Of a DNA stretch of 23,405 nucleotides, positions 2,315-22,922 are shown in pieces (the stretch's first letter is position 1; the number at the start of each line of letters is the position of its first letter). The position numbers were made by a program, and so were the translations under genes. The notes under the pieces were generated by a model. That model did not search any database. It was not told the DNA's origin and saw only the letters and a program-made list of their open reading frames with translations. The DNA comes from a virus, in the IMG/VR virus record IMGVR_UViG_3300043467_001754, positions 1 to 23,405 of that record. One strand, 5' to 3'.

Positions 2315-3040
2315 TTAATACCAAACTGGCTTTGAGCCTTGTGTTATAATTTTTTTGATCTTTGAACCCGGGGCTGCATTTATTGAATAGGTGGTGCATC
2401 TGTTGTCCCAAACTATTATATCACCAGTACTCCAAGTAGTCGAAAAAACATTTTGCTCATCCTGAAAAAACTCAAGCAAGTAAGCTAAATATTTTTGCCA
2501 AACATCATTGTCTTTACCTATAGTAGAAGGGCCGCTATAAAAAACTGATTCCCTATTTGTCTCTGGATGGATGCGCAATGCCGGGTGCTTATATTCTTGT
2601 TGAGACTGTCTTTGATGTAAGTCTCTTGGGTTTTTAATATTCCAACCAGTAATATTGTGTTTAGTTATAAATTCAACAATTTTTGGATCCAACAAATTTC
2701 TTACTTTTTCTAAATCAACCCAACTAATTAAATTAGATTCCCCTACAGATTCAACAATCTCCATCATACATATATCTGCTACCTTAGTGTCCCAGCACAG
2801 ATCATTTTGCCATCTTGCGTAATAGCCATATTCTCCAGGGCCAGCATTTTGTAGCGGGGCAAAGAAAGAGTAGTCGTAATCCTCGTCAACCAAAATTGAA
2901 GATTCACCTGGAGCAAATGCTTCAATAAGGCTTTCTGTATCTTCAGGACAAAAATCTTTGAATACCAACACTTTATGGTCTAAAAGTAGACAGGGATCGT
3001 CAATTATTCCATTTTCAATTATTTTACCAAAATTAGACAT
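2315..3040 (-). CDS. TauD/TfdA-fold protein lacking the iron-binding histidines (241 aa)
   Basis: The fold is recognisable from P-A-L-R-I-H-P-E-T-N-R (about residues 153-163, matching H-P-x-x-R-x-H-P-E-T-G-R) and from I-V-W-D-N-R near the C-terminus (209-214), both typical of TauD-type dioxygenases. Where the family has W-H-x-D the sequence is W77-Q78-N79-D80. Where the distal histidine follows W-D-N-R-x-x-x, it is Y218. Both histidine ligands are thus gone while the aspartate stays, and the usual arginine-rich tail is lysine-rich. The frame is intact, so this may be a pseudoenzyme with a binding or regulatory role, or a variant metal site. An extended -10 element ends six bases before its ATG. 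A neighbour of the intact oxygenase at 1720. Confidence 0.75.
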   Translation of the reverse strand: MSNFGKIIENGIIDDPCLLLDHKVLVFKDFCPEDTESLIEAFAPGESSILVDEDYDYSFFAPLQNAGPGEYGYYARWQNDLCWDTKVADICMMEIVESVGESNLISWVDLEKVRNLLDPKIVEFITKHNITGWNIKNPRDLHQRQSQQEYKHPALRIHPETNRESVFYSGPSTIGKDNDVWQKYLAYLLEFFQDEQNVFSTTWSTGDIIVWDNRCTTYSINAAPGSKIKKIITQGSKPVWY

Positions 3041-6962: not shown

Positions 6963-8927
6963 TTAATCTATATCAAGAAGCCAAGAATTAAAAGAATTTT
7001 TCTTTCCTGTTTCCATATAAGAAGTTAAATCACTAAGTTCTTTTAGCGCTCTAGTTTCAGCTTGTGCCTGTGATGGTTTGCTTCCGCTTTCTGAAGAAAC
7101 ACCATACTTTTTGAACCAATTAACCAACACATTAAAAGCTACATTAACATCAGAGTCTTGTTTCCAAGTATTTTCTCCACCGATATTCCATGGGTTAAAT
7201 AAAAATCCTACGCCCCTAACATTCCAAGGTTTGTCTATTTTTTTCATGATTGATACTTGAGGTATATATGGAAGTTGAATGTTTGTAAGTTGTTTTTCTA
7301 AATAATTAGAAGGCAAACTAAATTTAGATTTCATCATCCACACTTGATTAGCGGGTATCCTCGCCCAATCAGCTAAGTAAGACGAAGCATTCTTTCTATC
7401 AGCTATGTTGTATTCACCTTCAAAAGCTGGCGTGTTTGCATTAATCAAAGCAAGTGCAGAATTTTTAGAAGACTTCGAGGGACTAGATGCTTTGCCCTTA
7501 ATGTCTTTTATAATATTTTCATTTTTTATAAAAGCTTCCCATGCGTACTTCTTATTATTTTTACTAAGATCTGCTTCTCCGCTAACAGCATAAGGAACAG
7601 ACCAAAGCATCGCTGTTCCAAGCCAACCATTTTTGGGGTCAAAACTATTTGTGTCTTCTGGCTTACATCTTATTTGTAAAAACCCTAAATGTTCTGAACC
7701 ATTTGCTACACCTATTCCTATTTTATTTTCAGCTAAGTTTCCTTCTCTAGAAGCAATAGCTGTAAACACCGCCGCCAAACCAAAAGAAAAGTTTCCGACC
7801 AATGGATGAACCATCATTTCAAAAAATTCATCATATGTTAAAAAATCACCCGGATCAGATGAACCATTATATGGTTTAGCTACTTTAAATATTTTAGGGG
7901 AAAGACCATCTAAATTTTTTAGGCTAGGAAGCACTGTAAATTTATTGCTAGTTACTGTTGTTTGCCTGCCAAAAGCACCACCTCCTGTTTGAAATGGTGT
8001 TGAACTTTTGCGTGCAGGAGCATCAAAATCTATATTAGAATTGATACTTTCATTGATAATATTTGGTTTTACCGAAAGATTAGTTAAGGCTGGCGTTGAA
8101 CTTACTTTTTTTGTTGCGCTAACTATGTTTGGATTAACTTTATTTAAAACTTGTTTAATAGTTGAAGCCTTTTTGAGATCTTCCATTTTACTTCTAACCA
8201 ATGGAGTAGCAAAAGCAACTATGTAATACGTTATATGCCAATCGTCATCTGACAAAAAATTTTCTCTTGACCAACCATAGTTTAACATATTATTAGCCAT
8301 CCAATCGATAGCTTTTTTATTTTTAAAAATATCGTTATGCAAATCTACAGATATGCCCCAACCATGATTCGACATCCCGGGTGTCGCCATAGGTGGATCT
8401 CCAGCTTTAGAATATTCTCTTTTTTTATACCACCATTTTCCGCTGTCATTAGGGTATAAAGAATTTGGCCACCAATACTTTATATAATCATTACCAACAA
8501 AACTCCCACCATATGCAGAAGAAGATCGGCTGACACCATCTTCAAGTACAGGGTTAGCCGCCACTGTCGGGAACTCATGGTTGTTAATAAATAGTTTTCC
8601 GTTACGCCTCCATTCAGGTTTATCATCAAAATACGCTGGGTATCTTCTATCGTATTTTCTAGACCACGGAGTTGGTGAATACTTTTGTTTAAAGTTTTTT
8701 ACTGCGTTATTTAAATCTCTAAAAGCTGAAGTGACTCTTAGTTTATACTTTGTCGCAGCAAAAAGGTCGTCTGCCATTACTTTAAAAGATATTGCAGCTG
8801 TTCCGAGACAGTTTAAAACTTTCTCCAAGACCAAAGCTTTGAAGTGTTGGGCCAAAGTGAGCAGGTACTCCATTTTCATTAGGTACGTATAGACCAGAAC
8901 TCTTATCATAATGAGTCCATGTTTCAA
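6963..8927 (-). CDS. Tail-type lysin: M15 peptidase plus lysozyme-like domain (main frame)
   Basis: Numbering is from the first ATG of this frame, but the true N-terminus is probably the 66-residue frame at 8982-8782, joined by a one-base shift between about 8840 and 8782. The M15 (VanY-like) domain has S-A-F-R (67-70), S-N-H188-x-x-G-x-x-x-D195 and D-D-W-H231-I, so zinc ligands are intact. A linker (about 250-345) leads to a lysozyme-like region with I-A-S-R-E395-G-N and G-F-L-Q-I (415-419), matching the catalytic Glu and G-L-M-Q-I motif of transglycosylases. It should cut both the peptide and glycan parts of peptidoglycan. No signal peptide and its place after the tail-fibre-like gene suggest a virion-borne entry enzyme. 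The family normally keeps its two activities in order on one chain, as here. Confidence 0.75.
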   Translation of the reverse strand: MKHGLIMIRVLVYTYLMKMEYLLTLAQHFKALVLEKVLNCLGTAAISFKVMADDLFAATKYKLRVTSAFRDLNNAVKNFKQKYSPTPWSRKYDRRYPAYFDDKPEWRRNGKLFINNHEFPTVAANPVLEDGVSRSSSAYGGSFVGNDYIKYWWPNSLYPNDSGKWWYKKREYSKAGDPPMATPGMSNHGWGISVDLHNDIFKNKKAIDWMANNMLNYGWSRENFLSDDDWHITYYIVAFATPLVRSKMEDLKKASTIKQVLNKVNPNIVSATKKVSSTPALTNLSVKPNIINESINSNIDFDAPARKSSTPFQTGGGAFGRQTTVTSNKFTVLPSLKNLDGLSPKIFKVAKPYNGSSDPGDFLTYDEFFEMMVHPLVGNFSFGLAAVFTAIASREGNLAENKIGIGVANGSEHLGFLQIRCKPEDTNSFDPKNGWLGTAMLWSVPYAVSGEADLSKNNKKYAWEAFIKNENIIKDIKGKASSPSKSSKNSALALINANTPAFEGEYNIADRKNASSYLADWARIPANQVWMMKSKFSLPSNYLEKQLTNIQLPYIPQVSIMKKIDKPWNVRGVGFLFNPWNIGGENTWKQDSDVNVAFNVLVNWFKKYGVSSESGSKPSQAQAETRALKELSDLTSYMETGKKNSFNSWLLDID

Positions 8928-8982
8928 ATGGGTCCCTATCTAGTTGCCTTATTGGCCAATCATTTCTTGTTTTTAAACTCAT
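8782..8982 (-). CDS. N-terminal piece of the M15/lysozyme-like protein, out of frame with the rest (66 aa)
   Basis: ATG at 8982 overlaps the previous gene's stop (ATGA, 8982-8979), and AGAGGAG lies 13 bases upstream. The sequence up to about residue 53 (hydrophilic, with Y-V-P-N-E-N-G-V-P-A-H-F-G-P) reads like a normal virion protein, while the 6963 frame over the same DNA gives unlikely Met/Leu-rich sequence. Moving one base forward near codons 54-66 continues into the M15 frame. Two spots invite it: a TTTT run (G-AAA-G-TTTT-AAA) and the terminal TTT-TAA, where a Phe tRNA could re-pair perfectly one base ahead. Sequencing error, a true mutation or programmed +1 frameshifting are all open. 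Confidence 0.6.
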   Translation of the reverse strand: MSLKTRNDWPIRQLDRDPFETWTHYDKSSGLYVPNENGVPAHFGPTLQSFGLGESFKLSRNSCNIF

Positions 8983-11900
8983 TGTGATTTATACACTCCT
9001 CTTGCGCCATCTAAGCTAAAGCCTATGGGTGTTATAAATTTAGCTGAAGCTTTTCTTTCTTTAACATTTGTTTTTTCTGATTCAGGGCCAGAGTATCTAA
9101 CATAATTTCTTGTAGCATCAATATTGAGATAGTCTGACGGAACAAAAATTTTACCTAAAGGATATGTTCTTCTTAAAGTTTTATTCCAAACCATTCCATA
9201 CCACCAGTTGCCATTTATAATAAATGTATTTGGGTTATCAAATATTGCAGCCTGAGCAATGTTTAGTGTTGCAGAAGCTATTTGGAACCATTCTAAACCA
9301 TTCCACATATATATTTTATCTGTGTCAGTTTCATATATTGTTTCAGAAAAACCAGGTGCCACAGGCCTTTCCGTAGACAAACACTTATATGTAACATTAT
9401 ATTCTTGTGTTTGCGATTCCGACAAAGAAACTCTGAATTCAAAAGAGTCACCATTCCTCCAAATTAATTTGTTCCTCAAAGACAAACCAGGACCATGATC
9501 CGTCACCCTATTCTCACACGGTGCCTGCCTGTATCTATCGACTGCTAGCTCAGGAATAGATTTCATTCCACCATACATAGAAAAGAAACATACCGCCAAA
9601 GATTCTGTTTCTCCAGTGCACTTAGGTGCGTCCCTTTCTAAACCTATTTTTCCGATATTCTTTACCACTCCCGCATCATCTGATATATTAAATTCTAAAA
9701 TCCAAGAAGTGTGTGAAGCTATTTGAGATATAATTAAATCTTGTTTTAATGATTTAAATTTTGTTCCAGCGAACTCAGCATTGCGTGCCCATAGACCATC
9801 ATTAGATTGAAGTGTTGTTTCATTCTTCACTGGATCATTAATAACTATTACGCCATCAGTAGGTGGTTGAACAGTTTCATTAGGTGGAGTTACCTCTGGG
9901 TTTCCAGGAATTACTGGAGCTGGCTTTGGCGGCGTGACTCCTGGAGTTGGATTTGGGTTTACTGGTTTAGGTTTTGTCGGCTTAGGTTTTGGAGCCGGCG
10001 TTGGAGAAGGTGCTGGAGCCACTGGAGCCACTGGCATATTTGGATCTGGTATAGTTGTAAACGTTATACTATCCCACTTACCTGCGTTACCAGACCAAGA
10101 TTTGCCGGCAGAAGACTTAAGAACATGAGCCCCAATAAAAACACTTATATCTGTGTTATAAGGCAAAACATTTTTAGGCGTAATAGTTATACTGTTGTAA
10201 TCTAAGAAAGAAACTTCAGAACTAAATATATCTATTTTAGCTAAAGCTTTAGTAGTATTTTTTTTGTAGAAGAAAATAGACCCGCTATTTCTTACCATAG
10301 ACAAGTCAAATTCTAGCGTTAACTTAACATCTATATTAACTCTTTTATTATCATTTTCTGGGGTTAATGAAGTAACTGAATATGACAAAAACTTTGGTTC
10401 AGGAACTACGGGGCCTAATGGGGCGGTAGTTGTAGGTGGCGCAACACCGTCTCTTTGATCTGGGATGGTTATCTTAGGGATAGGGACTGTTGTGACCGGC
10501 ACTGTTGTCACAATCGTGCTTGACGGTGATCCGTTAGCAGGAGTTGTAGTAGTAGATGGTGTAACCACTGTTGTCGTCGTGACGCCATTAGCAACAACGG
10601 TTGTTGTAGTAGAAGTGCCATTTGGGGCAACTGTCGTAGAAGTACTAGGCGTATACGGTGGTAGTACTGGGATTTTTGGTGGGAAAACAATAGTCGTAGT
10701 GGTTATGGAACCGTTAGGATTGCTGACTGTAGTTGTTGTAGATTGTTGTGCTGGGAGAGTTGTCGTTGTAGTGGCCCTAGGAGTGGTGGTGGTCGTTGTG
10801 GTTGCTATTGGTCTTGGGGCTCCAATACCAGCCGCTCCAGCTCCAGGCCTTGCACCTGGTGCAGCTGGGATATATTTAGTTACAGTTGTCGTAGTTGATG
10901 GCAACAAAGTAGTAGTCGTCCCAATTTGTATTGTAGTTGGAGTTGTTGAAGAGGTAGGCGGTACGTTGATAGGCGCAGTCGGGATGCCCGTAATTAAATC
11001 ATCTACAATGTCAATATAATTAGGCGGGTGTATTCCATCGCCAGGAGCGTTAAAATCTCCAACAAATATAAATCCATACTTTTTGCAAAGCATTTCTAAT
11101 TTAAGATTAAAATATGTTCCAGGATACTTATCGTTCAGTTGTTTGGATATTCCCATGACATAAACTAAAGCAATTAGTTTTCTATCTGTAAAAACTTTTA
11201 TTTGGTCAAACTGCTTTTTTGCATCACTCAATGCGCTGGCAACATTGCTAGCTTGCTTTATCTGATTTGATGCCCCGGTTGAAAGCCATAATATTCTGCC
11301 GTTTAGCTGCTTGTCTTTTTGATCTATATACTTAAGAACGTTATTTATTCTCCTTGAGACTTCGTACATGTTATCCCCGACTTTATGATGATACCCATCC
11401 CAAACGCAAAACTGGCTGTATAAACCACTCGACTTAGGAAAATAAGTTTCATTCTGACAAGCAGAAGGGTCGTTAAGAAAAACGTTTGGCACAACTTGTG
11501 AAGTTTCCACTCCTGGATTCAAAGAATCATATCTATCAGATAATCCTACTGCAATACTGTCACCAATTATAATTGGTACCTTATTAGTTATCGTTGTTAC
11601 ATTTGATGGGGTGATTGTTGTTGTTGGGGACAGACCATCTCTTTGATCTGGATAAACTATTTTAGGAGCGACAGTTGTAGTAGTAGACTTTGGCGGGACA
11701 GTTGTTGTTGTTGACTTCTTGGGTATAGTTGTTGTTGTAGTTGCTTTAGGTATTGTTGTGCTAGTTGTAGGTTTTGCCGGGATAGTGGTTGTTGGCGCAG
11801 AAGGAACAGTTGTTGTTACTGGAATATTTTTTCTAATATCCGGATTTCTTAATAACTGATCTATTTTTTGTCTTTCTATAAGAATTTTAGAATCTAAATA

Positions 11901-13043
11901 CCCACTTATATCTTTCTTAATGTCGAAAAACCCCTCTTGAAGACTTCGTATTTGGTTCGATTCCAAAACTGTTTCGGTACCGAGAATAAACATTATATTA
12001 AATGGAGAAACAGTGGTAACTGATAATTTTACTGGATAAACTTTGTTATCCAATCTAGTAACACGAGCCCAATGATTTGCTGGCTTATTATCTGGAGTCG
12101 CCATTCCTGAAGGCCATTTCTCGACTTTTTTAAATGCGTCAACAGTATTTTTGGCTCCGCTCCCTCCGGAATTAAATGGGAAAGTATAATCTGGCTTAAT
12201 TGAATAATAAGAATTATTAAATGTAAAGTTTCTAGTCACAAGTTTGTTGTATACATAATCTAGGTCATTTAAAATTACAACTTTTCCATTTTGCATTAAA
12301 TCGGCCAGAGCACTGTGCGCTAACTTTAGATTGTATGAATACAGCGAATCTCTTTGTTCTATTTCCAAAGACGACGTGGCTATCATTCTGCCATTAAGCT
12401 TATTCAACAATGGAACAAAATTTTTTTCTACATAATTTTTGTATTCTGGCAAATAGTATATTGTAGACTTGTAGGGGGGATTACCTGGAACATACTCGAC
12501 GATGCGTAGTGGGTTGTCGCCCGTCACAACATTCACTAAATCTGATAAATTTACCGCTTGAACGTTTGTAAGTTTCTCTACGGCTAAACCTCCTGGCTGC
12601 TCATTTTCGAGCCTAGATATAGAAATTTTTAAATTTTCTGGGTACAGTGCATTATTTTTTTTATTTGATATTTCTTTTCTAAAACCCCATAAGTAATTAT
12701 AATTTTTAATTTCATCAGAAGTGGTTGCTGGTTGTTCTCCAATACTATCTGTTCTAACAATTGTTTTTTTTGTAATAACTGCTGGACTTTTTATTCCAAT
12801 ATAATTTAATGTATTAGCCATGATCCCAGCATAACCATTTACGGCGGTTGGGTTAACTACTAAAATAGTTGGTCCATTAATTCTTGGAACAACATTATTG
12901 TCCCAAGGAGAAGATCCAATTGGCTTAACAGGTGTGACCGTAGTGGTCTTTGTTGTCGGCTCTACAATAGTTTGCCAATAGCCACCACCTGCACCTGGAA
13001 ATATTGAGGGAATTTCAACATTTTTGCCAGACCCGGTCAACAC
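8979..13043 (-). CDS. Giant tail/adhesion protein with SGNH hydrolase and Ig-like domains (1354 aa)
   Basis: The frame opens at a GTG (13043) inside the upstream gene, so the start is uncertain. Order of parts: a LytR C-terminal-like segment with I-L-V-V-N-P-T-A-V-N-G-Y-A-G (60-73); an unassigned region (100-400); a Thr/Pro linker (409-485); an SGNH/GDSL hydrolase with G-D-S496, G-A-S-N593 and D669-G-I-H672 as catalytic blocks; a second long Thr/Pro linker (696-876); a Big_5/SbsA-like Ig domain (882-1000); a Pro/Lys linker (1001-1062); and a C-terminal beta-rich domain with four or five Cys. It probably binds the cell surface and removes acyl or acetyl groups from wall or glycan polymers. Its stop overlaps the next ATG. 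Virion location is inferred from context. Confidence 0.8.
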   Translation of the reverse strand: MLTGSGKNVEIPSIFPGAGGGYWQTIVEPTTKTTTVTPVKPIGSSPWDNNVVPRINGPTILVVNPTAVNGYAGIMANTLNYIGIKSPAVITKKTIVRTDSIGEQPATTSDEIKNYNYLWGFRKEISNKKNNALYPENLKISISRLENEQPGGLAVEKLTNVQAVNLSDLVNVVTGDNPLRIVEYVPGNPPYKSTIYYLPEYKNYVEKNFVPLLNKLNGRMIATSSLEIEQRDSLYSYNLKLAHSALADLMQNGKVVILNDLDYVYNKLVTRNFTFNNSYYSIKPDYTFPFNSGGSGAKNTVDAFKKVEKWPSGMATPDNKPANHWARVTRLDNKVYPVKLSVTTVSPFNIMFILGTETVLESNQIRSLQEGFFDIKKDISGYLDSKILIERQKIDQLLRNPDIRKNIPVTTTVPSAPTTTIPAKPTTSTTIPKATTTTTIPKKSTTTTVPPKSTTTTVAPKIVYPDQRDGLSPTTTITPSNVTTITNKVPIIIGDSIAVGLSDRYDSLNPGVETSQVVPNVFLNDPSACQNETYFPKSSGLYSQFCVWDGYHHKVGDNMYEVSRRINNVLKYIDQKDKQLNGRILWLSTGASNQIKQASNVASALSDAKKQFDQIKVFTDRKLIALVYVMGISKQLNDKYPGTYFNLKLEMLCKKYGFIFVGDFNAPGDGIHPPNYIDIVDDLITGIPTAPINVPPTSSTTPTTIQIGTTTTLLPSTTTTVTKYIPAAPGARPGAGAAGIGAPRPIATTTTTTTPRATTTTTLPAQQSTTTTVSNPNGSITTTTIVFPPKIPVLPPYTPSTSTTVAPNGTSTTTTVVANGVTTTTVVTPSTTTTPANGSPSSTIVTTVPVTTVPIPKITIPDQRDGVAPPTTTAPLGPVVPEPKFLSYSVTSLTPENDNKRVNIDVKLTLEFDLSMVRNSGSIFFYKKNTTKALAKIDIFSSEVSFLDYNSITITPKNVLPYNTDISVFIGAHVLKSSAGKSWSGNAGKWDSITFTTIPDPNMPVAPVAPAPSPTPAPKPKPTKPKPVNPNPTPGVTPPKPAPVIPGNPEVTPPNETVQPPTDGVIVINDPVKNETTLQSNDGLWARNAEFAGTKFKSLKQDLIISQIASHTSWILEFNISDDAGVVKNIGKIGLERDAPKCTGETESLAVCFFSMYGGMKSIPELAVDRYRQAPCENRVTDHGPGLSLRNKLIWRNGDSFEFRVSLSESQTQEYNVTYKCLSTERPVAPGFSETIYETDTDKIYMWNGLEWFQIASATLNIAQAAIFDNPNTFIINGNWWYGMVWNKTLRRTYPLGKIFVPSDYLNIDATRNYVRYSGPESEKTNVKERKASAKFITPIGFSLDGARGVYKSQ
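9858..10043 (-). repeat. Pro/Lys-rich linker coding segment
   Basis: Residues 1001-1062 of the 1354-aa protein are built almost only of Pro, Ala, Lys, Val, Thr and Asn, with P-K-P-K-P-T-K-P-K-P-like runs. They separate the Ig-like domain from the C-terminal domain and are probably an extended, rigid spacer. The + strand frame opposite is a shadow. Confidence 0.7.
10416..10958 (-). repeat. Long Thr/Pro low-complexity linker coding segment
   Basis: Residues 696-876 of the 1354-aa protein contain many T-T-T-T-[TV]-[VPI] runs coded by GTTGTTGTAGTAGT-like DNA (as seen on the + strand). The segment joins the SGNH domain to the Ig-like domain and ends with P-D-Q-R-D-G (10446-10463). Such linkers are typical of actinobacterial surface proteins. 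Confidence 0.8.
11589..11819 (-). repeat. Thr/Pro low-complexity linker coding segment
   Basis: Residues 409-485 of the 1354-aa protein repeat a P-K-x-T-T-T-T-[TV]-[VI]-P-like unit about every 10 residues. They end with P-D-Q-R-D-G (11634-11651), then the SGNH hydrolase begins. The two linkers share a 14-base identical sequence, TCTCTTTGATCTGG on the + strand, at their ends. Confidence 0.8.
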
Positions 13044-13848
13044 CAGTTATTGTGTTACCCCCCTTGTTCCCTGGGTCTGGGACCCATACTCTTTTTGGCG
13101 TGGTAGTAGGTACGGTTTTTGGCACAGTTGTTGGCACAGGCTTAAATTCATCTACTTCTTCCGTTGTTCTATCTGTGTATTTACTTGGCTTAGTTTTTGC
13201 CGCGTAATAAACTAATGTATTTTGAAAATCTGGATCAGTTTTAGGCATATCGCTACACCAGCTCCACCCATAGCTTGCGCCATTAGTTTTAATGAAATTA
13301 ATTATTTTATCATTATTGTTTTTTATCTGGATGCAAAGACCAGTGCCAAAAATGTTAAACCCAGGAAGGGGGTTGTACTTTATTATAGTTGTTGGGTACC
13401 ACTTCACCCCAGCATAAATTCTTCCGTTTTTTACTTCTGGAATACCAGAAGCTTTAGAAACATTAGTCGGAGTCTTGCTGTTTATTGCTTTAAATTCTTT
13501 TTCTTGAACAGATAAAGTTTTATATACAGTTGTATATTCTATTTTTATCCCTTGTTTTTTTGCAGCTTGCACCATGTCGTCCAGTGTCCACGCTGGTGCG
13601 AAAGGAAGCTTAATAGATGATTTATAAAAATCTTTTTCCGGCAACGTTCCGTTATATGCGCCATAACTTTTTGCTTCAGTGGTATAAAGATAACTTAATA
13701 TTTTGCCAAAATATATAAATTTTGGTCGTGACGTAAGTTGCGGTACTATAGGGACACCAGTTCCATCAAACCTTCCCTGATCGCCAGGCAGATTATACTG
13801 AAGCGGGTTAGCCGGCAAACTGTTTACATCTACTCTTGTTACACCCAT
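13015..13848 (-). CDS. Tail-block protein with degenerate M15 peptidase-like domain (277 aa)
   Basis: AAGG lies ten bases before the ATG. The middle matches the M15 fold: Y-x-x-V-Y-K-T-L-S-V-Q-E (105-116) aligns with the Y-R-S/T-x-x-x-Q segment, and P-G-F-N-I-F167-G-T-G170-L-C-I-Q174 aligns without gaps to P-G-M-S-N-H-G-W-G-I-S-V-D in the protein at 6963. The zinc ligands His and Asp are therefore Phe and Gln, and the W-H-I region is F208-Q209. The domain is probably inactive and may bind peptidoglycan. The C-terminus is a Thr/Pro linker (236-252) followed by V-P-D-P-G-N. It overlaps the next frame by 29 bases; a one-base shift there would fuse the two into one chain. Confidence 0.75.
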   Translation of the reverse strand: MGVTRVDVNSLPANPLQYNLPGDQGRFDGTGVPIVPQLTSRPKFIYFGKILSYLYTTEAKSYGAYNGTLPEKDFYKSSIKLPFAPAWTLDDMVQAAKKQGIKIEYTTVYKTLSVQEKEFKAINSKTPTNVSKASGIPEVKNGRIYAGVKWYPTTIIKYNPLPGFNIFGTGLCIQIKNNNDKIINFIKTNGASYGWSWCSDMPKTDPDFQNTLVYYAAKTKPSKYTDRTTEEVDEFKPVPTTVPKTVPTTTPKRVWVPDPGNKGGNTITGVDRVWQKC

Positions 13849-13908: not shown

Positions 13909-14661
13909 CTATCTAAAATTCTTACGAACCCAATCAGGATACGTATCGTCTACCTCATAGTATTTTAGCGGGAACCTATCAAATGGATCCATGCCCTCGC
14001 TTATTCTGCGAAGTATCTCTTTATCATCTTTAAATTCTTCTAGATTGTATTCGGTGTGAGCAAAAGATTCTATCTTATTCTTTATGTTTTCAATGTCTGT
14101 GAAAAAAGAAAAATGCCAGCCAGCGTCAGGTATCGTATACCAGGTTCCAGCTCTCAACTCTTGGCAAGATTGAGCCTCTAAATCTTTAAATCTAGCAGCA
14201 ATTGGTCTAGCCCCCTGATTGCAGTGTTCCGGAACTTGCCAGTTATAATTCCAAAAATATTGTTTAACATCTAATCTAGCCGGGGTTTCAACTACCTTCA
14301 ATTGATTAATAATATTTGAGCTTATTATTTCATCCGCGTCAGAAATGATTACAATATCATCTGCTTCGGCTTTATCTAGGCCAAAGCGAATAGCGTTGCG
14401 TTGGTAATGTTCTCTTTCCCAAGGGGACTTAACAGTGGAAAGATCTGGAGAATTGAAATGTATTTTAATTCTAATTATTTTATCTTCCCATTTTTTAGCC
14501 CAATCAGGTAGTTGGTCAAGGTAAAATGGTTTTTCTTTTCCAGTAAATGTTTCGGATGCTTCAACTATAACAAAGTGGTCAACAATATCACCTAGTTCTT
14601 CAAATCTTACGCGAAGCATTTCTTCTTCATTAAAATAGGTAAAACAATCAAATATTTTCAT
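13909..14661 (-). CDS. Family 17 glycosyltransferase-like protein (250 aa)
   Basis: The N-terminus M-K-I-F-D-C-F-T-Y-F-N-E-E is the usual start of GT17 (N-acetylglucosaminyltransferase-like) proteins, followed by V-D-H-F-V-I-V-E-A-S-E-T-F-T-G and the D-x-D-type S-D-A-D-E-I motif (about 107-112) for metal and nucleotide-sugar binding. An ATG four codons upstream (14673) is possible, but AAGGA touches that codon directly while it lies 11 bases from the one at 14661, so I prefer the latter. The gene overlaps the preceding methyltransferase-like gene by 14 bases. It likely adds a sugar to a surface glycan or virion protein. Cytosolic enzyme. Confidence 0.82.
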   Translation of the reverse strand: MKIFDCFTYFNEEEMLRVRFEELGDIVDHFVIVEASETFTGKEKPFYLDQLPDWAKKWEDKIIRIKIHFNSPDLSTVKSPWEREHYQRNAIRFGLDKAEADDIVIISDADEIISSNIINQLKVVETPARLDVKQYFWNYNWQVPEHCNQGARPIAARFKDLEAQSCQELRAGTWYTIPDAGWHFSFFTDIENIKNKIESFAHTEYNLEEFKDDKEILRRISEGMDPFDRFPLKYYEVDDTYPDWVRKNFR

Positions 14662-15109
14662 AGATACGAACATCCTTGTTGTTAAATAACGAATATCTTT
14701 TTATTTCTTTTTCGATCTGCGAATCTGCGGTAAATTCAGACTCAAGATTAGATGCCCACTTACCAGGGTTTACCGCCAAAATAAAACCACCTGGTTTTAA
14801 AACTCTTTTAATTTCTTGAGCTATTTGATGATAATTGTTGTTAAATATTTCTGGGTCATAATTAATTGAAATAAATAAATCAACACAATCATCAGAAAAC
14901 AACATCGGATTTAAACCAGCTGGCCAGTAGTAGTTATTCTCGCTATTTTCTAATGGTGCCTCAAGTGCACTCCACAATCGCATTGCGCCGATCCCATGCT
15001 CTGTTGTATAGAGAGTATTCGCTAAATCCATGTCCTCTTGATAACAAACAGTAAAAGAGTTATTTTTAAAAATGTCTCTTATTATATGTGCTACATGATT
15101 CCAGTTCAT
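14648..15109 (-). CDS. Short methyltransferase-like protein without the usual SAM motif I (153 aa)
   Basis: The second half resembles the end of a class I methyltransferase: D-L-F-I-S-I-N-Y (motif II-like strand), then I-K-R-V-L-K-P-G-G-F-I-L-A-V-N-P (motif III). The first half lacks a clear G-x-G-x-G SAM-binding loop and the protein is much shorter than typical (about 200-250). It starts directly after the stop of the 15110 methyltransferase, so the two may be a split or heteromeric pair, or this one may be a decayed copy. No strong ribosome-binding site; coupling is likely. Function unknown beyond fold. Confidence 0.6.
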   Translation of the reverse strand: MNWNHVAHIIRDIFKNNSFTVCYQEDMDLANTLYTTEHGIGAMRLWSALEAPLENSENNYYWPAGLNPMLFSDDCVDLFISINYDPEIFNNNYHQIAQEIKRVLKPGGFILAVNPGKWASNLESEFTADSQIEKEIKRYSLFNNKDVRIYENI

Positions 15110-15649
15110 TTACTTGACAGGCTTAATTGCGTCTACCTTAAGCCAACCCCATTCATCTCCACGTTTAACATCTAATATTTCAAAACCCATTCTCTCAAAA
15201 TCATCTTGAAGCATTCTATGAGTTAAGCCCACGAAATGAAAATCAAAAGGATTTAGTTGCTCGGCAAAAAAGATCTGTTGCATTCTTCTATCGCCATCAA
15301 GGGAGTCCATTTGAAGTATCTGGTTGCAGGCCAACAAGAAGTCTGGAACTTCAATTCTAATCATTCCACCAGGCTTAACTATTCTGCACCATTCAGCCAG
15401 AACAGCTTGGTATTCTTTCCACGGAAAATGCTCAAGACACTCTGAGTTATATACGATATCTGCAAAATTATCTGGAAGATTGATCTTTCTAGCATCGCAA
15501 ACTACGTCAACTGGAACATAAGTTTTATTAGCGTGGTCATACAGTGGTGTTGGATCTATATCAATATGAATCCAGTCTGGACCAAGATATGTTCTAGTGC
15601 CAATTACAACTTTTGTGCCTGCGCCTTGTGGGATAGTTTCTAATCTCAT
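15110..15649 (-). CDS. SAM-dependent methyltransferase (179 aa)
   Basis: AGGA precedes the ATG at 15649 by a few bases. The sequence starts with a K-V-V-I-G strand and G-P-D-W-I-H-I-D-I-D-P, like small class I methyltransferases that begin with L-N-x-G and W-x-N-x-D-x-x-P. It continues with D-A-R-K-I-N-L-P-D-N-F-A-D-I-V-Y-N-S-E-C-L-E-H (motif II, D-x-I-x-x-x-x-x-L-E-H) and V-K-P-G-G-M-I-R-I-E-V-P-D (motif III). The glycine-rich loop is atypical. Within the sugar block it may methylate a sugar or glycan end. Confidence 0.75.
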   Translation of the reverse strand: MRLETIPQGAGTKVVIGTRTYLGPDWIHIDIDPTPLYDHANKTYVPVDVVCDARKINLPDNFADIVYNSECLEHFPWKEYQAVLAEWCRIVKPGGMIRIEVPDFLLACNQILQMDSLDGDRRMQQIFFAEQLNPFDFHFVGLTHRMLQDDFERMGFEILDVKRGDEWGWLKVDAIKPVK

Positions 15650-15654
15650 TTTTC

Positions 15655-16206
15655 CTACGTTCTTAAGGGCCAGACAGGCATCTTTGTAATATCTATTTCA
15701 CTTAAAATTGGATTAGCACTATCTCTTGCTGAGAGGATAGGATCTTGCACAGACCATTCTGCACCGATCATTTTATCGTCCCAAGCAACTCCAAGTTCGT
15801 CAGCTTGATTGTAATAATTGTCTACCAAATAAGTTAAGATCATATCTGTAGTAGCAGAAAAACCATGGGCAACTCCTGGTGGAATATACAATCCAAGATT
15901 ATTATCTCCTGTTAAATCTACTGAATATATCTCACCTTCCGTTGGTGACCCTATTCTCATGTCATAAATAACTGATCTTGCTTTGCCAAAAGGAACATAC
16001 CAATAGTCAGACTGATGCAGATGGTAATGAAATCCAGCTAGGGCACCTGCAGATTTAGATGATCTATTTGTTTGTATTACTTCTCTTGCTCCCGGTATCC
16101 AATCTCTTCTATAAGATTCGGTGAAGAAACCTCTATCATCACCAAATTTTTGTGGCTCTACTAAGAAAGCACCTTTAATATTTGTCTCTTGTACATTTGC
16201 GCCCAT
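15655..16206 (-). CDS. rfbC: dTDP-4-dehydrorhamnose 3,5-epimerase-like cupin (RmlC family, 183 aa)
   Basis: Family marks are F-G-D-D-R-G-F-F-T-E-S-Y (near residue 22), Q-T-N-R-S-S-K-S, G-x-H-Y-H (H at about 75), D-M-R-I-G-S-P-T-x-G, Y-I-P-P-G-V-A-H-G-F and Y-N-Q-A-D-E-x-G-V-A-W-D-D. The canonical L-R-G-L-H-Y-Q is L-A-G-F-H-Y-H-L-H-Q here, so this is a divergent branch and may act on another dTDP- or NDP-4-keto sugar. Length is usual for the family. Its ATG shares a base with the GT2 stop (TAATG). With the RmlD-like protein it suggests a deoxysugar route, though RmlA and RmlB are not in the window. Confidence 0.85.
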   Translation of the reverse strand: MGANVQETNIKGAFLVEPQKFGDDRGFFTESYRRDWIPGAREVIQTNRSSKSAGALAGFHYHLHQSDYWYVPFGKARSVIYDMRIGSPTEGEIYSVDLTGDNNLGLYIPPGVAHGFSATTDMILTYLVDNYYNQADELGVAWDDKMIGAEWSVQDPILSARDSANPILSEIDITKMPVWPLRT

Positions 16207-17066
16207 TAGATTATTCTTCCTCTGTAAAAATTAGTCCATCTAGGGACTTTGATAAGATCAACTTCTCTACCCAAAGCAGCAATGTATACTGTTTCTGGAT
16301 TTTCATTTAGTCCCTTAAGTTCTGGCTGTGACTGGTACCACTCTTCTAGGTAGATGGCACTCCAGTCTTCAAATCTAGTTACATTAGGACTATGGTATGT
16401 GACATTCGGGCCAACGTAATATTTATTCCACTTGTTAACCCAATTAACAACACCTTCGTTAATTCTATTTTTAGAAGCGGGATCGTTTGAACTAGTCGAA
16501 TCATGCCCAACATGGATGGATGGATCAGCTATCATCTTCCAGCCATCAAGTCTAAGACGAGTTTGATAATCTACTTCTTCTTGGTGGCCAATCTTAGTAT
16601 CAAATCCACCAATTCGCAAGTACGCTTGTTTCTTAAGCATCCAGCAAAAGCCAACTCCCCATAGTATTTCTGTGTACTTAGGTCTTGGAATTTGATAAGC
16701 CCCACCGTTAGGAAAGGCCATTGCAACTTCTAAGTTTGTAGCAAGATAGCCTGCAAGTTTTTCGTCCCATCCATGAGTTGCTACATAGGCATCGTTGTCT
16801 AAGTAGCCAACATAATCTGTTTCTGCCCACTCTAATATTTGATTGACTGCTCCAACGTATCCACTATTGCTATCTAAGAATCTTGGAATAATTCTTGAAT
16901 CTTCACTAACGTGTCTTTCAATTACTTCTCTAACACCTGGATCCGTGGATGCATTATCGATAACTAGAAATCGCCAATCAGAAGTAGAGCATTGTCTCAT
17001 GTTAGTGAGCATCGTGTTTAACTTGTCAGGATTGTTGTAGCTAGCAGTGCCCATATCTATTCTCAT
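16206..17066 (-). CDS. Family 2 glycosyltransferase (286 aa)
   Basis: A GT-A fold enzyme: N-terminal strand, then F-L-V-I-D-N-A-S-T-D-P-G (nucleotide-binding, about residues 33-44), a D-S-N-x-G-Y-V-G-A-V-N segment, the metal-binding L-D-N-D (D90/D92), and G-G-F-D with E-E-V-D-Y (acceptor side and catalytic base region). The start at 17066 overlaps the preceding stop as ATGA; the open frame goes five codons further upstream but this coupled ATG is preferred. It should transfer a sugar from a nucleotide donor to a surface glycan or protein in the cytoplasm. Donor unknown, perhaps the product of the RmlC/RmlD pair. Confidence 0.88.
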   Translation of the reverse strand: MRIDMGTASYNNPDKLNTMLTNMRQCSTSDWRFLVIDNASTDPGVREVIERHVSEDSRIIPRFLDSNSGYVGAVNQILEWAETDYVGYLDNDAYVATHGWDEKLAGYLATNLEVAMAFPNGGAYQIPRPKYTEILWGVGFCWMLKKQAYLRIGGFDTKIGHQEEVDYQTRLRLDGWKMIADPSIHVGHDSTSSNDPASKNRINEGVVNWVNKWNKYYVGPNVTYHSPNVTRFEDWSAIYLEEWYQSQPELKGLNENPETVYIAALGREVDLIKVPRWTNFYRGRII

Positions 17067-17818
17067 GGCTTTACCCACCACTGTCCATTTTCATGTCGGA
17101 CAAATCCTATTTGCACTAACATTGTATCCCATTCCCATTCGTATTTATTATTGATAGAAAGGTGCATCGGGATAGAATTCCCGTGCTCCGCATCCCCTAT
17201 GCCAAATGCATTATGAGGGATAAACACACCGTTTTTCTTTAAGCAGTTAAAAATAGCCAATGCCCATTCATCTACGTTTACAACGTGCTCTAAAAAATCT
17301 AAAGCAACAACGGCATCAAACTCGTTTATGCCAATTTTTGGGGCAAAGGTATCGGTGAATATGATTTTTATACCTAGATCAGGACGCTTGCTAAATCTAT
17401 GCTGAGCAAAGCCGGCTGTCTTGCTGTCCTCTAGATCATGGTATGTGGTATTTAATCCTTCTTCGGCCATTCTCAAGCTCAGCGTACCGATACCGTCACC
17501 AATACTCAGGACATCTTTCTTGCCAGCATGCGCTAGTCCCAAACTAATACCCTCACACATGCCCTTGTAGTTAAAGCCATCATCTAAGTGATATGAAGAA
17601 AGCTCCCAAATATAAGTATCTGTATTTCTATACCAATTAAGAAGAGAGTCTGGATCATCTACATTGGTATTGGTGGAAGTAAAATCTTCTGCGACCATGT
17701 GGTGATTAGCATGAAAGCCTAAAGATAAACGCTCTTTAACCTTATCTAATCTAATGCCCAAATATTCTGATATGTCTTTTGCTTGTGTCTCTAAGTTCAC
17801 TTTTTTATTTTTTCCCAT
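17063..17818 (-). CDS. SAM-dependent methyltransferase (251 aa)
   Basis: A helical N-terminal part (about 100 residues) precedes a clear SAM domain: V-L-S-I-G-D-G-I-G-T-L-S-L (motif I), T-T-Y-H-D-L-E (acidic residue after strand 2), D-A-V-V-A-L-D-F-L-E-H-V (motif II) and L-K-K-N-G-V-F (motif III). Two in-frame ATGs exist at 17830 and 17818; both lie inside the end of the RmlD-like gene. I choose 17818 because a TTTGGA sequence precedes it. It probably methylates a sugar or glycan intermediate of the same block, judging only by neighbours. Confidence 0.78.
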   Translation of the reverse strand: MGKNKKVNLETQAKDISEYLGIRLDKVKERLSLGFHANHHMVAEDFTSTNTNVDDPDSLLNWYRNTDTYIWELSSYHLDDGFNYKGMCEGISLGLAHAGKKDVLSIGDGIGTLSLRMAEEGLNTTYHDLEDSKTAGFAQHRFSKRPDLGIKIIFTDTFAPKIGINEFDAVVALDFLEHVVNVDEWALAIFNCLKKNGVFIPHNAFGIGDAEHGNSIPMHLSINNKYEWEWDTMLVQIGFVRHENGQWWVKP

Positions 17819-18672
17819 TCCAAATAGCATTTTTCTAAACCATACATATAATCAGTCATGTATAAAGATGTTCCATCTTCCCAAGTGGTATCCTTGGGTC
17901 TTGCTACAATGCTGGTGAAATAAGTATAGGATACTGGTTTAATTTCAGTATCTAGTTTACCACGAGAAGCTGTTTTTATATCACTAGCTATAGAAAATCT
18001 TGAACATTTTATTGGATTACCTATGTGAGTAATTTTTTGATCATTTTCTTCAAAATGAAGAGCGGCGTCCCAAAGCAACATAGCAGCGTCGTAAGCAAAA
18101 ACTGGAGAAAAGAATCTATCATCAACTTGAAGCTGCTCTTTTTTTTCCATCATAATTTCTAATGGATTTTTTCTGCCTATATCCTGGAAAGGTCTTACAC
18201 CAATAACAAAAGTTAACCTAACTATTTTTACATTATTATATGAAATAATAAGTTCTTCAGCAAGCGCTTTCTGCCTACCATACCATGTAACAGGATCGGG
18301 TTTGGAGTTGGTATTATAATTAGCATTTTCTCCGCTAAAGATACCCTGCGTACTAACTTGTATTAATTTTTTATTGTTATCACTAACCCATGTAGCTAAA
18401 ATAACAGGCAGGTTTACATTAACATGTACTGAGTCATGTGGGTTTTCCTCTACAACGTCGACTATGTTTTGCCCTGCTAAGTTGATGATTACATCGGGAG
18501 AGTTAGCATTAAGCCAAGCTTGTATATTATCTTCGCCAACGTTTAGTTGCGACCAAACTCCATCCCCTTTTGTTCTCGTGAAAATAGCATCAGCCCATTC
18601 AGGCTTATTGACCATCATGTGCTGGCCTATTATCCCACCAGCTCCTATCACAACAACTTTTTTATTTTGCAT
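17797..18672 (-). CDS. rfbD: dTDP-4-dehydrorhamnose reductase-like SDR enzyme (RmlD family, 291 aa)
   Basis: AAGGA lies eight bases before the ATG. The N-terminal Rossmann motif is V-V-V-I-G-A-G-G-I-I-G (6-16), followed by D-V-I-I-N-L-A-G-Q (60-68), S-T-Q-G-I-F-S-G (107-114) and the catalytic Y131-G-R-Q-K135. The arrangement V-S-T-Q-x-I-F-S-G and P-x-x-x-Y-G-x-x-K is typical of RmlD. It should reduce a 4-keto NDP-sugar with NAD(P)H to give, for example, dTDP-L-rhamnose. It heads the five coupled sugar genes, after a 91-base gap that holds no clear terminator. Confidence 0.85.
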   Translation of the reverse strand: MQNKKVVVIGAGGIIGQHMMVNKPEWADAIFTRTKGDGVWSQLNVGEDNIQAWLNANSPDVIINLAGQNIVDVVEENPHDSVHVNVNLPVILATWVSDNNKKLIQVSTQGIFSGENANYNTNSKPDPVTWYGRQKALAEELIISYNNVKIVRLTFVIGVRPFQDIGRKNPLEIMMEKKEQLQVDDRFFSPVFAYDAAMLLWDAALHFEENDQKITHIGNPIKCSRFSIASDIKTASRGKLDTEIKPVSYTYFTSIVARPKDTTWEDGTSLYMTDYMYGLEKCYLEWEKIKK

Positions 18673-18763
18673 CTTTTGAGTCCTTCATCTTTTATTTTAA
18701 TTTTTCTATATAGGGTAAAATTGGGAAAAAATTTTTAGGGCCAAATTGGTTTTTGACCTTTTT
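18673..18763 (-). other. Intergenic gap before the sugar block
   Basis: These 91 AT-rich bases hold the RmlD-gene ribosome-binding site and a C-C-C-T-A-T-A-T-A-G stretch that could serve as a weak -10. There is no hairpin with a T tail that would act as a terminator. A separate transcription start for the sugar block is possible but not proven. Confidence 0.3.
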
Positions 18764-19546
18764 CTAATAGCCGGAAAAAGTAGTTGTAATAACACTGCCC
18801 TGTCTTTGGTCAAGAGGTGGCAACTCTTTTCTGACCAAAACTCTTTGCACCCACCTATCGGTGCCATCGTATCTTGCTTGGAAAGGTTTTCTGCCATGAA
18901 TTGTTTTTCTATTATCTATAACCAATAGGTCACCTGTTTTTAATATAATTTCTTTTGTACATTTTTGAATCGCATCTTCAAGTTCTTCGAGAACCAATCT
19001 AGCTAGATAGTCATTCGGCTTCATGACAGTTGCATCGTAGGTAAAAGTTAACATCCCGTCAGCTTCTCCAATTATAGAAGTAGGTATCTCTTGGTCTTCT
19101 TCCCCATTTGTTCTAAAGCTAAGATCTATTCCTGTTGTAAACATTTTTGACTTCAACATATGTTTAGTCTCTACCCTAATATGCTTGAGTATGTCAGACA
19201 AATTAGCGTACGTGGTTACTGCCTGAGGATCGCCCCTAAGGCAAAACAAAACTACATAGTCTGGCTTGTAAGGATGAAATGCAGTCTCTGTGTGAAGAGC
19301 TAGTTCAGTTTTAGATGAAGTAGATATCTGTTGATACTCAGTCTTATGGACTGGAACTATGTTCTGTATTATTTGACCGTTTTGTTCCTGAATATAACCA
19401 ATCGGATGGCCATATTTTTTAACATGATCAAGAAGAATCAGAGTGCTTTCTTTGGAGCTGGCGTGCTTGGGGGAACTGATGATCGGTGTAGCTGGAGTTG
19501 GAGGCACATATCCAACATCTAAATTCTCGTAAAGAAAAATTCCCAT
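18764..19546 (-). CDS. Clavaminate-synthase-like 2-oxoglutarate oxygenase (AsnO/VioC type, 260 aa)
   Basis: The iron site is complete and of the HxE type: L-A-L-H85-T-E87-T-A-F-H-P, then V-L-F-C-L-R-G-D (99-106), distal I-D-N-R-x-x-I-H217-G-R, and R235 for 2-oxoglutarate. H-T-E with F-H-P-x-x-P-x-Y and C-L-R-x-D marks the clavaminate synthase / asparagine and arginine hydroxylase branch of the TauD superfamily. Known members hydroxylate free or carrier-bound amino acids, so a free amino acid or a peptide-linked one is the likely substrate. This differs from the TauD-like protein at 2315, which lost its ligands. Soluble enzyme. It follows the 69-residue gene by nine bases. Confidence 0.83.
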   Translation of the reverse strand: MGIFLYENLDVGYVPPTPATPIISSPKHASSKESTLILLDHVKKYGHPIGYIQEQNGQIIQNIVPVHKTEYQQISTSSKTELALHTETAFHPYKPDYVVLFCLRGDPQAVTTYANLSDILKHIRVETKHMLKSKMFTTGIDLSFRTNGEEDQEIPTSIIGEADGMLTFTYDATVMKPNDYLARLVLEELEDAIQKCTKEIILKTGDLLVIDNRKTIHGRKPFQARYDGTDRWVQRVLVRKELPPLDQRQGSVITTTFSGY

Positions 19547-20354: not shown

Positions 20355-20625
20355 TATTATTTCGCGCTGCTTTAACTTTTTCTCCTGTTTTAAATTTTAG
20401 ATTTTCTAAATTAAACTGGTTAGTAATATGATTATTAAGATGTGTGTCTATCTTAGCTTCTATATGCGATATATCATCATCTATATCTGCAATGTCTTCT
20501 TTTATAGAATCTAAGCGATCTTTGACAAAGCCGTGGTCACGAACATTCTCACGACGCCCCTTCTCTATGAGAAGCATCAAAACGCCAAACGCGCCAGTAA
20601 CAGCGGAAGCCCATACGATTTCCAT
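20335..20625 (-). CDS. Membrane-anchored coiled-coil protein next to the endolysin (96 aa)
   Basis: Residues 3-20 (I-V-W-A-S-A-V-T-G-A-F-G-V-L-M-L-L-I) form a single membrane segment, then E-K-G-R-R-E-N, then a long helix with hydrophobic residues spaced as in a coiled coil (D-R-L-D-S-I-K-E-D-I-A-D-I-D-D-D-I). Proteins of this layout sit next to endolysins in many actinophages and are often listed as putative holins or DUF2746-like; I infer a lysis role from the context. The ATG shares a base with the endolysin stop (TAATG). The tail is Lys/Asn-rich. Confidence 0.65.
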   Translation of the reverse strand: MEIVWASAVTGAFGVLMLLIEKGRRENVRDHGFVKDRLDSIKEDIADIDDDISHIEAKIDTHLNNHITNQFNLENLKFKTGEKVKAARNNNGSKKR

Positions 20626-21386
20626 TAAAGACCAAGCAGTTCTTTGACCTTTGGTCCAGCAACTGAATCGGCAGGGAGTTTATTAGCTACCTTGAAAGCT
20701 TTAACTGCTGCGTCTGTCGCCGCGTCCTTCTGTCCATTGATTTCGCCCTTGTAAAATCCTTTTGCCTTAAGTGCTTCCTGGAGCTTTGTTACATCATTGC
20801 CACCGACTGCAGCGGGAGCAGCAGAACCTGCTGGCTTTTCCCAGTTGTTCTTTGCCATCCACTCAGCAACTGCTGGAGGAGGTGTATCACCATTTACATA
20901 TCTAATATGCCATGGCTCTGAAGGAACAACTTCCCATGAGAAACCAAACTTCTTTACATTCGCAATCATCCAGTTAAGACGCTTTGGCTCTGATGCTGAA
21001 TGAATATCAACAGCCAAGCCCAAATTATGCTGACTCTTACCAGGAGTAGCCAACATGGCCATACCCTTCTTTAGATACCAGGTCTTGCCTTCGAAAGACT
21101 TTGTACTCGTTCCAGCAACTGGCTCAAGCTGATATCTTTGCTTAAAACCAGCAAGCTGACTCTCATAAGTCCTATATGTATCACCCGCTGAAGTAGGTTT
21201 TAGTTCCAAGCCATCAGCTTTTGCTGCTTCATCCATTGCATTGTAAGCAGCTGCTGCAAGCCAATGCATTTTGCCGCCAGCCTCAATAGGACGCAAAAGG
21301 TGTGCAGGCAACTTGCCTGGCTCAATGCCCTTAAGGTCTTTTGGCAACACTACTGGAACTATATAATCCCAAGCGAGTTTACTCAT
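20625..21386 (-). CDS. Endolysin: M15 peptidase plus peptidoglycan-binding domain (253 aa)
   Basis: GGAG in the end of the preceding gene serves the start at 21386. The M15 (VanY-like) domain shows Y71-R-T-Y-E-S-Q77, S-x-H120-x-x-G-L-A-V-D127-I-H and E157-P-W-H160-I-R-Y, so zinc ligands (H120, D127, H160) and catalytic Glu are all present. After a Pro/Ala linker, residues about 197-252 form a peptidoglycan-binding domain (V-T-K-L-Q-E-A-L-K-A-K-G-F-Y, D-A-A-T-x-A-A-V-K-A-F, G-P-K-V). It should cut peptide bonds of the host wall during lysis, without a signal peptide and so needing a holin. Sampled GC is high (32 of 60 bases at 20821-20880) compared with most neighbours. Confidence 0.9.
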   Translation of the reverse strand: MSKLAWDYIVPVVLPKDLKGIEPGKLPAHLLRPIEAGGKMHWLAAAAYNAMDEAAKADGLELKPTSAGDTYRTYESQLAGFKQRYQLEPVAGTSTKSFEGKTWYLKKGMAMLATPGKSQHNLGLAVDIHSASEPKRLNWMIANVKKFGFSWEVVPSEPWHIRYVNGDTPPPAVAEWMAKNNWEKPAGSAAPAAVGGNDVTKLQEALKAKGFYKGEINGQKDAATDAAVKAFKVANKLPADSVAGPKVKELLGL

Positions 21387-22244: not shown

Positions 22245-22922
22245 TTAAAAAGTTTTAACTAAATTTTCGATAGCTATATTTCTTGGCATTGTGTTAGAAA
22301 TCAGTGTAGTTTTTTTAAACCATTTTAAAACGATATTATATCTAGTACCGCTTTTTACCTGATTTACAGCATGTAAATACATGGAATTTGTTGGAAACGT
22401 AACAACTTCTCCGGCCTTAGGGCTTATTGTTAAATCGTATTCTGGGAATACAATCTCCCCACCTTCATAGTCATCATTCAAATAAACTAAAGAAGAATAA
22501 TCAGATAAAAATCTAGGTATGTGCGTATGCCAATGAGGGTCTGAACCATTTATTTCTAAGGCCAATTCAGAATTATTATACTCACTGTCAGAATGCATAG
22601 TTTGAAAATCTCCGATAGACCAAACCCTACCCCATATTTGGGGATCACAAACCAATCTTTGCCCATACTTATATTCAACCCTATCTTTAACTTGATTAAT
22701 TAAGTTAAACAAAACTGGTTTAAGATCATCAGAAATAAAAAAATATGGCACTGCTTTCACAGTAACAGGATCGCCGTTTGGATAATAATCACAACCTAAA
22801 CCGTTTGGCATAAGATCGTCCCAGTCATCAGGACACTCCATGTGTCCCAATAAACTGCGAACGTCTTCGGTTGATAATACATTATTGTTAACAACAATGT
22901 TGTCTACAGAACCAATACCCAT
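22245..22922 (-). CDS. 2-oxoglutarate/Fe(II) oxygenase, prolyl 4-hydroxylase-like (225 aa)
   Basis: The iron site reads M-H110-S-D112, then distal Y-L-H184-A, then S-G-T-R194-Y-N for 2-oxoglutarate. The signature V-Y-L-N-D-D-Y-E-G-G-E-I-V-F-P (about 146-160) and P-K-A-G-E-V-V-T-F-P follow in P4H order. The protein is related to the one at 1720, which has the same layout but shorter N-terminus. Substrate unknown. It starts five bases after the stop of the 32-residue gene, with a weak AGAAG site, so coupling is likely. Sits inside the cluster of tiny basic proteins. Confidence 0.87.
   Translation of the reverse strand: MGIGSVDNIVVNNNVLSTEDVRSLLGHMECPDDWDDLMPNGLGCDYYPNGDPVTVKAVPYFFISDDLKPVLFNLINQVKDRVEYKYGQRLVCDPQIWGRVWSIGDFQTMHSDSEYNNSELALEINGSDPHWHTHIPRFLSDYSSLVYLNDDYEGGEIVFPEYDLTISPKAGEVVTFPTNSMYLHAVNQVKSGTRYNIVLKWFKKTTLISNTMPRNIAIENLVKTF

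Follow-up and report, generated by a model that had tools for sequence, protein, structure and literature searches.

A phage glycan-building cassette with RmlC and RmlD that is probably fed by a host keto-sugar

We analysed a stretch of viral DNA of 23,405 bases, the entire IMG/VR record IMGVR_UViG_3300043467_001754 (hereafter, the window), and focused on a cassette of genes for sugar synthesis, sugar transfer and methylation that we think is probably supplied with a keto-sugar by the bacterial host. The window is a fragment, because the record carries no terminal repeats. Seven minus-strand open reading frames (ORFs), running from 18672 to 13909, make up the cassette, and the first four form a module that is exchanged between phages:

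17797 to 18672, minus strand: RmlD-like reductase of the short-chain dehydrogenase/reductase (SDR) type, phage-specific lineage; PF04321 (RmlD_sub_bind), 2.4e-30
17063 to 17830, minus strand: MTa, class I S-adenosylmethionine (SAM) methyltransferase; PF13489 (Methyltransf_23), 1.7e-07, and PF08242, 4.1e-07
16206 to 17081, minus strand: GT2 glycosyltransferase; PF00535 (Glycos_transf_2), 1.6e-16
15655 to 16206, minus strand: RmlC, deoxythymidine diphosphate (dTDP)-4-keto-6-deoxyglucose 3,5-epimerase of the Acidimicrobiia type; PF00908 (dTDP_sugar_isom), 2.4e-42
15110 to 15649, minus strand: MTb, SAM methyltransferase; PF08241 (Methyltransf_11), 7.1e-12
14648 to 15109, minus strand: MTc, methyltransferase-fold protein; PF08241 (Methyltransf_11), 4.6e-04, exactly at the cut-off
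13909 to 14673, minus strand: GT17-family glycosyltransferase; PF04724 (Glyco_transf_17), 7.1e-35
15652 to 18684, minus strand: exchange module RmlD-MTa-GT2-RmlC, delimited by blastn breakpoints; close relatives carry MTa'-GT2' instead

The Pfam matches were far beyond chance in six of the seven proteins, MTc being the exception. Neighbouring genes overlap or abut: the GT2/RmlC junction reads TAATG, MTb and MTc abut, and 5 bases separate RmlC from MTb. With the ATG at 17066 as the GT2 start, in place of the GTG at 17081, the MTa/GT2 junction reads ATGA; judging from this junction and from the start used by the relative L066, the ATG is likely the true start. The ORFs, the Pfam matches and the junctions together confirmed the seven coupled same-strand genes reported by a first-pass annotation of this DNA. 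Wherever a rate could be computed the genes were under purifying selection, with ratios of nonsynonymous to synonymous substitution (NG86 dN/dS) mostly of 0.02–0.2 and at most 0.42 (MTc, one pair); many pairs were saturated and gave no value. Promoter-like sites showed no excess over shuffled sequence, and 7 terminator-like sites were found against 5.4 in the shuffles.

The first-pass annotation had placed the genes for the first steps of the pathway, rmlA and rmlB, outside the window. tblastn with the operon of the putative host clade likewise found no RmlA or RmlB homologue within it (best E values 1.2 and 1.8). The annotation had also proposed searching elsewhere for the two genes, and we ran this check on phage relatives gathered through RmlC (16 records), through GT17 (L019–L034) and through a DNA pattern for the RmlC motif, which added L066. 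Many relatives are near-identical contigs, so counts refer to records and not to events; L016 and L018 are one record, counted once, and L034, a remote GT17 alone, stands outside the module counts. The RmlA family PF00483 was found in none of the 32 relative records, nor in L066. PF16363 matched in 19 of the 32, and in all 16 RmlC-positive records the sole match falls within RmlD by coordinates; the RmlB model TIGR01181 was exceeded in none of six large RmlC-positive records. Two large records, G009 (210,831 bases) and G012 (202,043 bases), have exact terminal repeats of 119 and 58 bases, which were not found in three other large records tested. Repeats of this kind are expected of closed genomes, and these two look complete; both contain RmlC and RmlD, and no RmlA or RmlB was found in either. 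A complete dTDP-L-rhamnose pathway was found neither in the window nor in the relatives, RmlA and RmlB being the steps not found. Dehydratase-like genes do lie beside other glycosyltransferases in the RmlC-negative records L035 (PF16363, 138 bits) and L036 (PF02719, 233 bits).

Two lines of evidence point to a host in the class Acidimicrobiia, as far as gene content can tell. WhiB exceeded its cut-off in three of 15 phage records, namely the three above 200 kb, and was present in one of 14 control genomes (Corynebacterium). An alignment search with RmlC returned 80 cellular loci, 78 of them with the acidimicrobial-type enzyme, labelled mostly as Acidimicrobiia, Ilumatobacteraceae or unresolved Actinomycetota; one locus labelled Acidobacteria and a few labelled Bifidobacterium breve were taken to be mislabelled metagenome-assembled genomes. 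A 2019 account describes freshwater members of the class as uncultured (PMC6802176). RmlA, RmlC, RmlB and RmlD were consecutive in 53 of the 80 loci, RmlC stood alone in 11 and the rest were partial. RmlB exceeded its cut-off in 38 of 40 host-clade genomes; the genome searches for RmlB and RmlD covered the genomes of 40 of the 80 loci, and the count of PF00908 copies covered 16.

Because the putative host clade has both RmlA and RmlB and the phages were found with neither, the pathway is naturally read as host-fed, and the first-pass suggestion that the phage feeds on a host dTDP-4-keto sugar gains good inferential support. Host RmlA and RmlB would make dTDP-4-keto-6-deoxy-D-glucose. Phage RmlC, to judge from its family and its kept residues, would epimerise this product to dTDP-4-keto-L-rhamnose, and phage RmlD would reduce the keto-sugar to a dTDP-6-deoxy-L-hexose, either rhamnose or its C4 epimer. 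We therefore lean towards a cassette that builds a glycan for a large myovirus-like phage of Acidimicrobiia from a host keto-sugar, and consider this somewhat probable.

The RmlC sequence fits the host clade. It passes the superfamily test (PF00908, 144.9 bits; cut-off 27) and falls below the TIGR01221 equivalog cut-off (124.3 vs 155.75 bits). Four host-clade RmlCs also fail TIGR01221 (105.6–124.5 bits), two of them shown to lie within complete rml operons, and at the host-clade loci L103 and L111 RmlA, RmlB and RmlD exceed the NCBIfam cut-offs with RmlC under, as in the phage. Residues H60, Y126 and D144, which we take to be catalytic, are invariant in the alignment. All 17 relative phage records have AGFHYH as the RmlC motif. 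The first-pass annotation read this divergent motif (LAGFHYH) as the sign of an unusual sugar, an idea that we rejected: VG[LF]H[YF]H is common to the host clade, being present in 78 of the 80 cellular loci, mostly in canonical rhamnose operons (complete rmlACBD in 53 of the 80), and the remaining two (RGLHF) belong to Algoriphagus and Neptuniibacter. The cellular scan had been selected on HQSDYWY and VDNYYNQ and not on the V/R position of the motif. Over the motif, phage RmlC differs from host-clade RmlC by V to A and L to F. The usual Arg and three nearby residues are lost in the host clade as well as in the phage, and since the loss of Arg is thus a host-clade trait too, the motif is uninformative on an unusual sugar. 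Identity between phage RmlC and the 78 acidimicrobial-type loci was 48–62% (best 61–62%). In the RmlC tree, eight phage rows stand together beside all Acidimicrobiia rows, although no one branch sets them apart (two label changes), so the tree indicates the class only, not the family. Each of the 16 host-clade genomes tested had one strong PF00908 match, and two also had a weak match containing stops.

By these comparisons the divergent enzyme is RmlD rather than RmlC, and it is RmlD that departs from the host pathway. It passes the family test (PF04321, 106.1 bits; cut-off 27) and keeps GxxGxxG and T108/Y131/K135. Its score against the TIGR01214 equivalog is well below the cut-off (105.9 vs 224.05 bits), whereas two host-clade RmlDs scored 289.1 and 275.5 bits. 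Identity was 23% to two aligned host-clade RmlDs and 22–31% in local BLAST matches. All five aligned phage sequences have STQGIFSG in place of the segment STDYVFDG, a form absent from every cellular match with a readable motif, and no close cellular relative was found in 395 genomes of the class (best 74.7 bits). Foldseek placed RmlD and MAT2B at the top for a poor model of the phage protein (predicted local distance difference test score, pLDDT, 59.7). It is possible that the product of phage RmlD differs from that of host RmlD. These data also bear on a simpler alternative, a realistic possibility to which we give somewhat less than even weight: RmlC and RmlD would only boost flux through the late steps, and the product would be ordinary dTDP-L-rhamnose, which the host could supply alone. 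The host has all four rml genes, phage RmlC is of the host type, and close phage relatives retain the frame of the cassette without RmlC and RmlD, all of which suits such a top-up. A top-up might, however, be expected to use a host-derived RmlD, and the phage enzyme is distant from that of the host and bears a signature of its own.

We compared the cassettes of the relatives. RmlD, MTa and GT2 accompany RmlC in all 17 RmlC-positive relatives. Against the RmlC-negative records L019, L021, L022, L024 and L026, blastn homology breaks off 13 bases ahead of the start of RmlD and is picked up again 2 bases ahead of that of MTb. L003, L007 and L008 have different flanks, and with them homology extends from the RmlD start to shortly past MTb. 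These breakpoints show, at the level of sequence, that RmlD-MTa-GT2-RmlC has been exchanged as a block between phage backbones at gene boundaries. The MTa proteins of RmlC/RmlD phages form their own group (82/99), and the trees of GT17 and of a small backbone gene put the window with the RmlC-negative L019. MTb is the most conserved gene across backbones (dN/dS 0.00–0.05), and MTb, MTc and GT17 are the more constant frame of the cassette. RmlC seems to move alone also, because in L006 versus the window its dS is 0.29 and those of GT2 and MTb exceed 2. Thirteen RmlC-negative records are without both RmlC and RmlD, and L032 and L033 keep RmlD without RmlC; there RmlD is split over two overlapping frames (L032/L033:6411-7314) with no RmlC in the cassette, and the sugar branch looks as if it were decaying. 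In L066, a gene for a 246-residue protein without a Pfam match lies between RmlC and MTb (L066:1545-2285), and two tRNA-Ser genes lie directly upstream of the cassette (L066:5328-5507). A bolder proposal, which we regard as rather doubtful, joins the exchange to the RmlD lineage: the phage would tap the host rhamnose pathway at the keto intermediate, its own RmlD would give a 6-deoxy-L-hexose that the host lacks (e.g., 6-deoxy-L-talose), and the block would act as a mobile serotype module that switches the particle glycan among large actinophages.

For the later steps under the host-fed reading, the protein families suggest that GT2 would transfer the deoxyhexose, that MTa and MTb would O-methylate it and that GT17 would add a further sugar. 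GT17 meets its family threshold with ease (PF04724, 121.1 bits; cut-off 26). The predicted fold of MTc (pLDDT 83.1) has class I methyltransferases as its best Foldseek matches, and the glycine-rich SAM-binding motif I was not seen by eye in an alignment of its relatives; MTc may be inactive. No membrane segment was predicted in the eight enzymes tested, and the cassette contains no flippase, lipid-carrier or polymerase gene. Because the enzymes have no membrane segment and the cassette no flippase or lipid-carrier gene, a cytoplasmic acceptor appears most likely, with a virion protein as first choice.

The first-pass annotation had set the cassette just upstream of tail proteins and proposed that these, or the surface, become glycosylated. 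PHROG tail matches do exist for the products of 6963-8927 and 13015-13848, but both fall in the same part of a tape-measure profile of 1,948 positions, to which the endolysin-like protein at 20625-21386 is a far better match, and the match of 8979-13043 to a tail family has an E value of 0.0043 only. T/P-rich stretches occur in the neighbouring large proteins of the window. G009 is myovirus-like, with families for tail sheath, baseplate wedge and major head protein, and has a minor-tail/fibre-like protein a few kilobases beyond its cassette. The protein at 3257-6916 combines a signal-like N-terminus, a weak beta-helix match, a T/P-rich stretch and a C-terminal membrane segment, and looks exported rather than part of the tail. 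As its homologues come after the cassette in most relatives, the glycan could instead be attached to a phage protein that is exported, or to the envelope of the host, where it would change the surface or exclude superinfection; as the enzymes look cytoplasmic and the cassette has no gene for a lipid carrier, a flippase or a polymerase, we think this unlikely. We tentatively rank the virion ahead of the surface.

A third destination, the phage DNA itself, is very improbable. Phage glycosyltransferases are capable of decorating DNA (Pyle 2024, as cited in PMC12619734), several Fe(II)/2-oxoglutarate (2OG) oxygenases are encoded in the window, and weak Tet_JBP matches (at most 20.2 bits) appeared in four of 10 records. 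Yet Tet_JBP exceeded its cut-off in none of the 10 and the thymidylate synthase family was found in none of them, so both routes to a hydroxylated base went unseen.

Several points weigh against a host-fed glycan cassette. The sugar, its linkage and its acceptor are unproved, and the tail labels of the window neighbours are weak. Given its distance from host RmlD, phage RmlD may act on a substrate other than the RmlC product. The use of the RmlC/RmlD sugar by GT2 is not shown, because RmlC-linked and RmlC-free alleles do not fall into separate groups in the GT2 tree. The terminal repeats of G009 and G012 could be assembly overlaps of incomplete genomes, and the host was assigned from related genes, with no link found through spacers, tRNAs or single cells.

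The division of the pathway has precedents. Klebsiella phage KP13-26 (OP617743, Stephanstirmvirinae; complete, 144,419 bases) has RmlC and RmlD, as does the window lineage, but in direct succession, and RmlA and RmlB are neither annotated there nor found by tblastn, which did detect RmlB in a positive control, Synechococcus phage S-B05. Since KP13-26 carries RmlC and RmlD alone, the split is not new; the interest lies in the exchange of the block and in the lineage of RmlD. KP13-26 differs in that its pair lies among nucleotide-metabolism genes with no glycosyltransferase or methyltransferase annotated beside it, its RmlC is 37% identical to that of the window, and it has another host. S-B05, also a large phage, carries RmlC within a group of sugar genes along with a glycosyltransferase, but an RmlB-like dehydratase (44% to host-clade RmlB) adjoins RmlC. 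The Acidimicrobiia rmlACBD operon shares the RmlC motif type; unlike the phage set it is complete, and its RmlD exceeds the equivalog cut-off. In one account of chloroviruses (PMC9614988), ATCV-1 encodes one enzyme for uridine diphosphate (UDP)-rhamnose and the other is thought to be host-supplied, and PBCV-1 A064R and A061L couple rhamnosyl transfer to O-methylation of rhamnose; ATCV-1 has the first step and its host the last, the reverse of the window lineage, and these unrelated viruses use UDP-sugars in unrelated hosts. Glycans on the capsid and tail tube are reported for mycobacteriophages (Freeman 2023, as summarised in PMC12619734), which are actinobacterial phages, as is proposed for the window lineage. 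The parts of the open-licence literature covered contained no phage rhamnose or RmlC cassette, and no phage of the host class, that we recognised as the window lineage. The locus offers a testable case of a nucleotide-sugar pathway split between a phage and an actinobacterial host. With the block-moving module one could ask whether phages change the sugars on their surface in the way that bacteria change serotype, and the divergence of phage RmlD from its host counterpart justifies one defined enzyme assay.

Just upstream of the cassette in this backbone lies one further gene of note:

18764 to 19546, minus strand: Fe(II)/2OG oxygenase, VioC/GntD/clavaminate-synthase-like; NF041363, 174.7 bits (cut-off 345)

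It is present beside RmlC-negative cassettes and absent beside L003-type cassettes, and its membership of the cassette is uncertain. It is one of four Fe(II)/2OG oxygenase-like proteins encoded within 23 kb (1720-2313, 2315-3040, 18764-19546 and 22245-22922) and is similar to the amino-acid hydroxylases GntD and VioC. Glycosylation might be preceded by a hydroxylation step. G009 encodes a flavin-dependent tryptophan halogenase (L080:16597-18114; PF04820, 319 bits) and, away from its cassette, further glycan machinery in the form of two N-acetylglucosamine (GlcNAc)-type glycosyltransferases (L074:7265-8194 and L074:10713-11672; PF11397).

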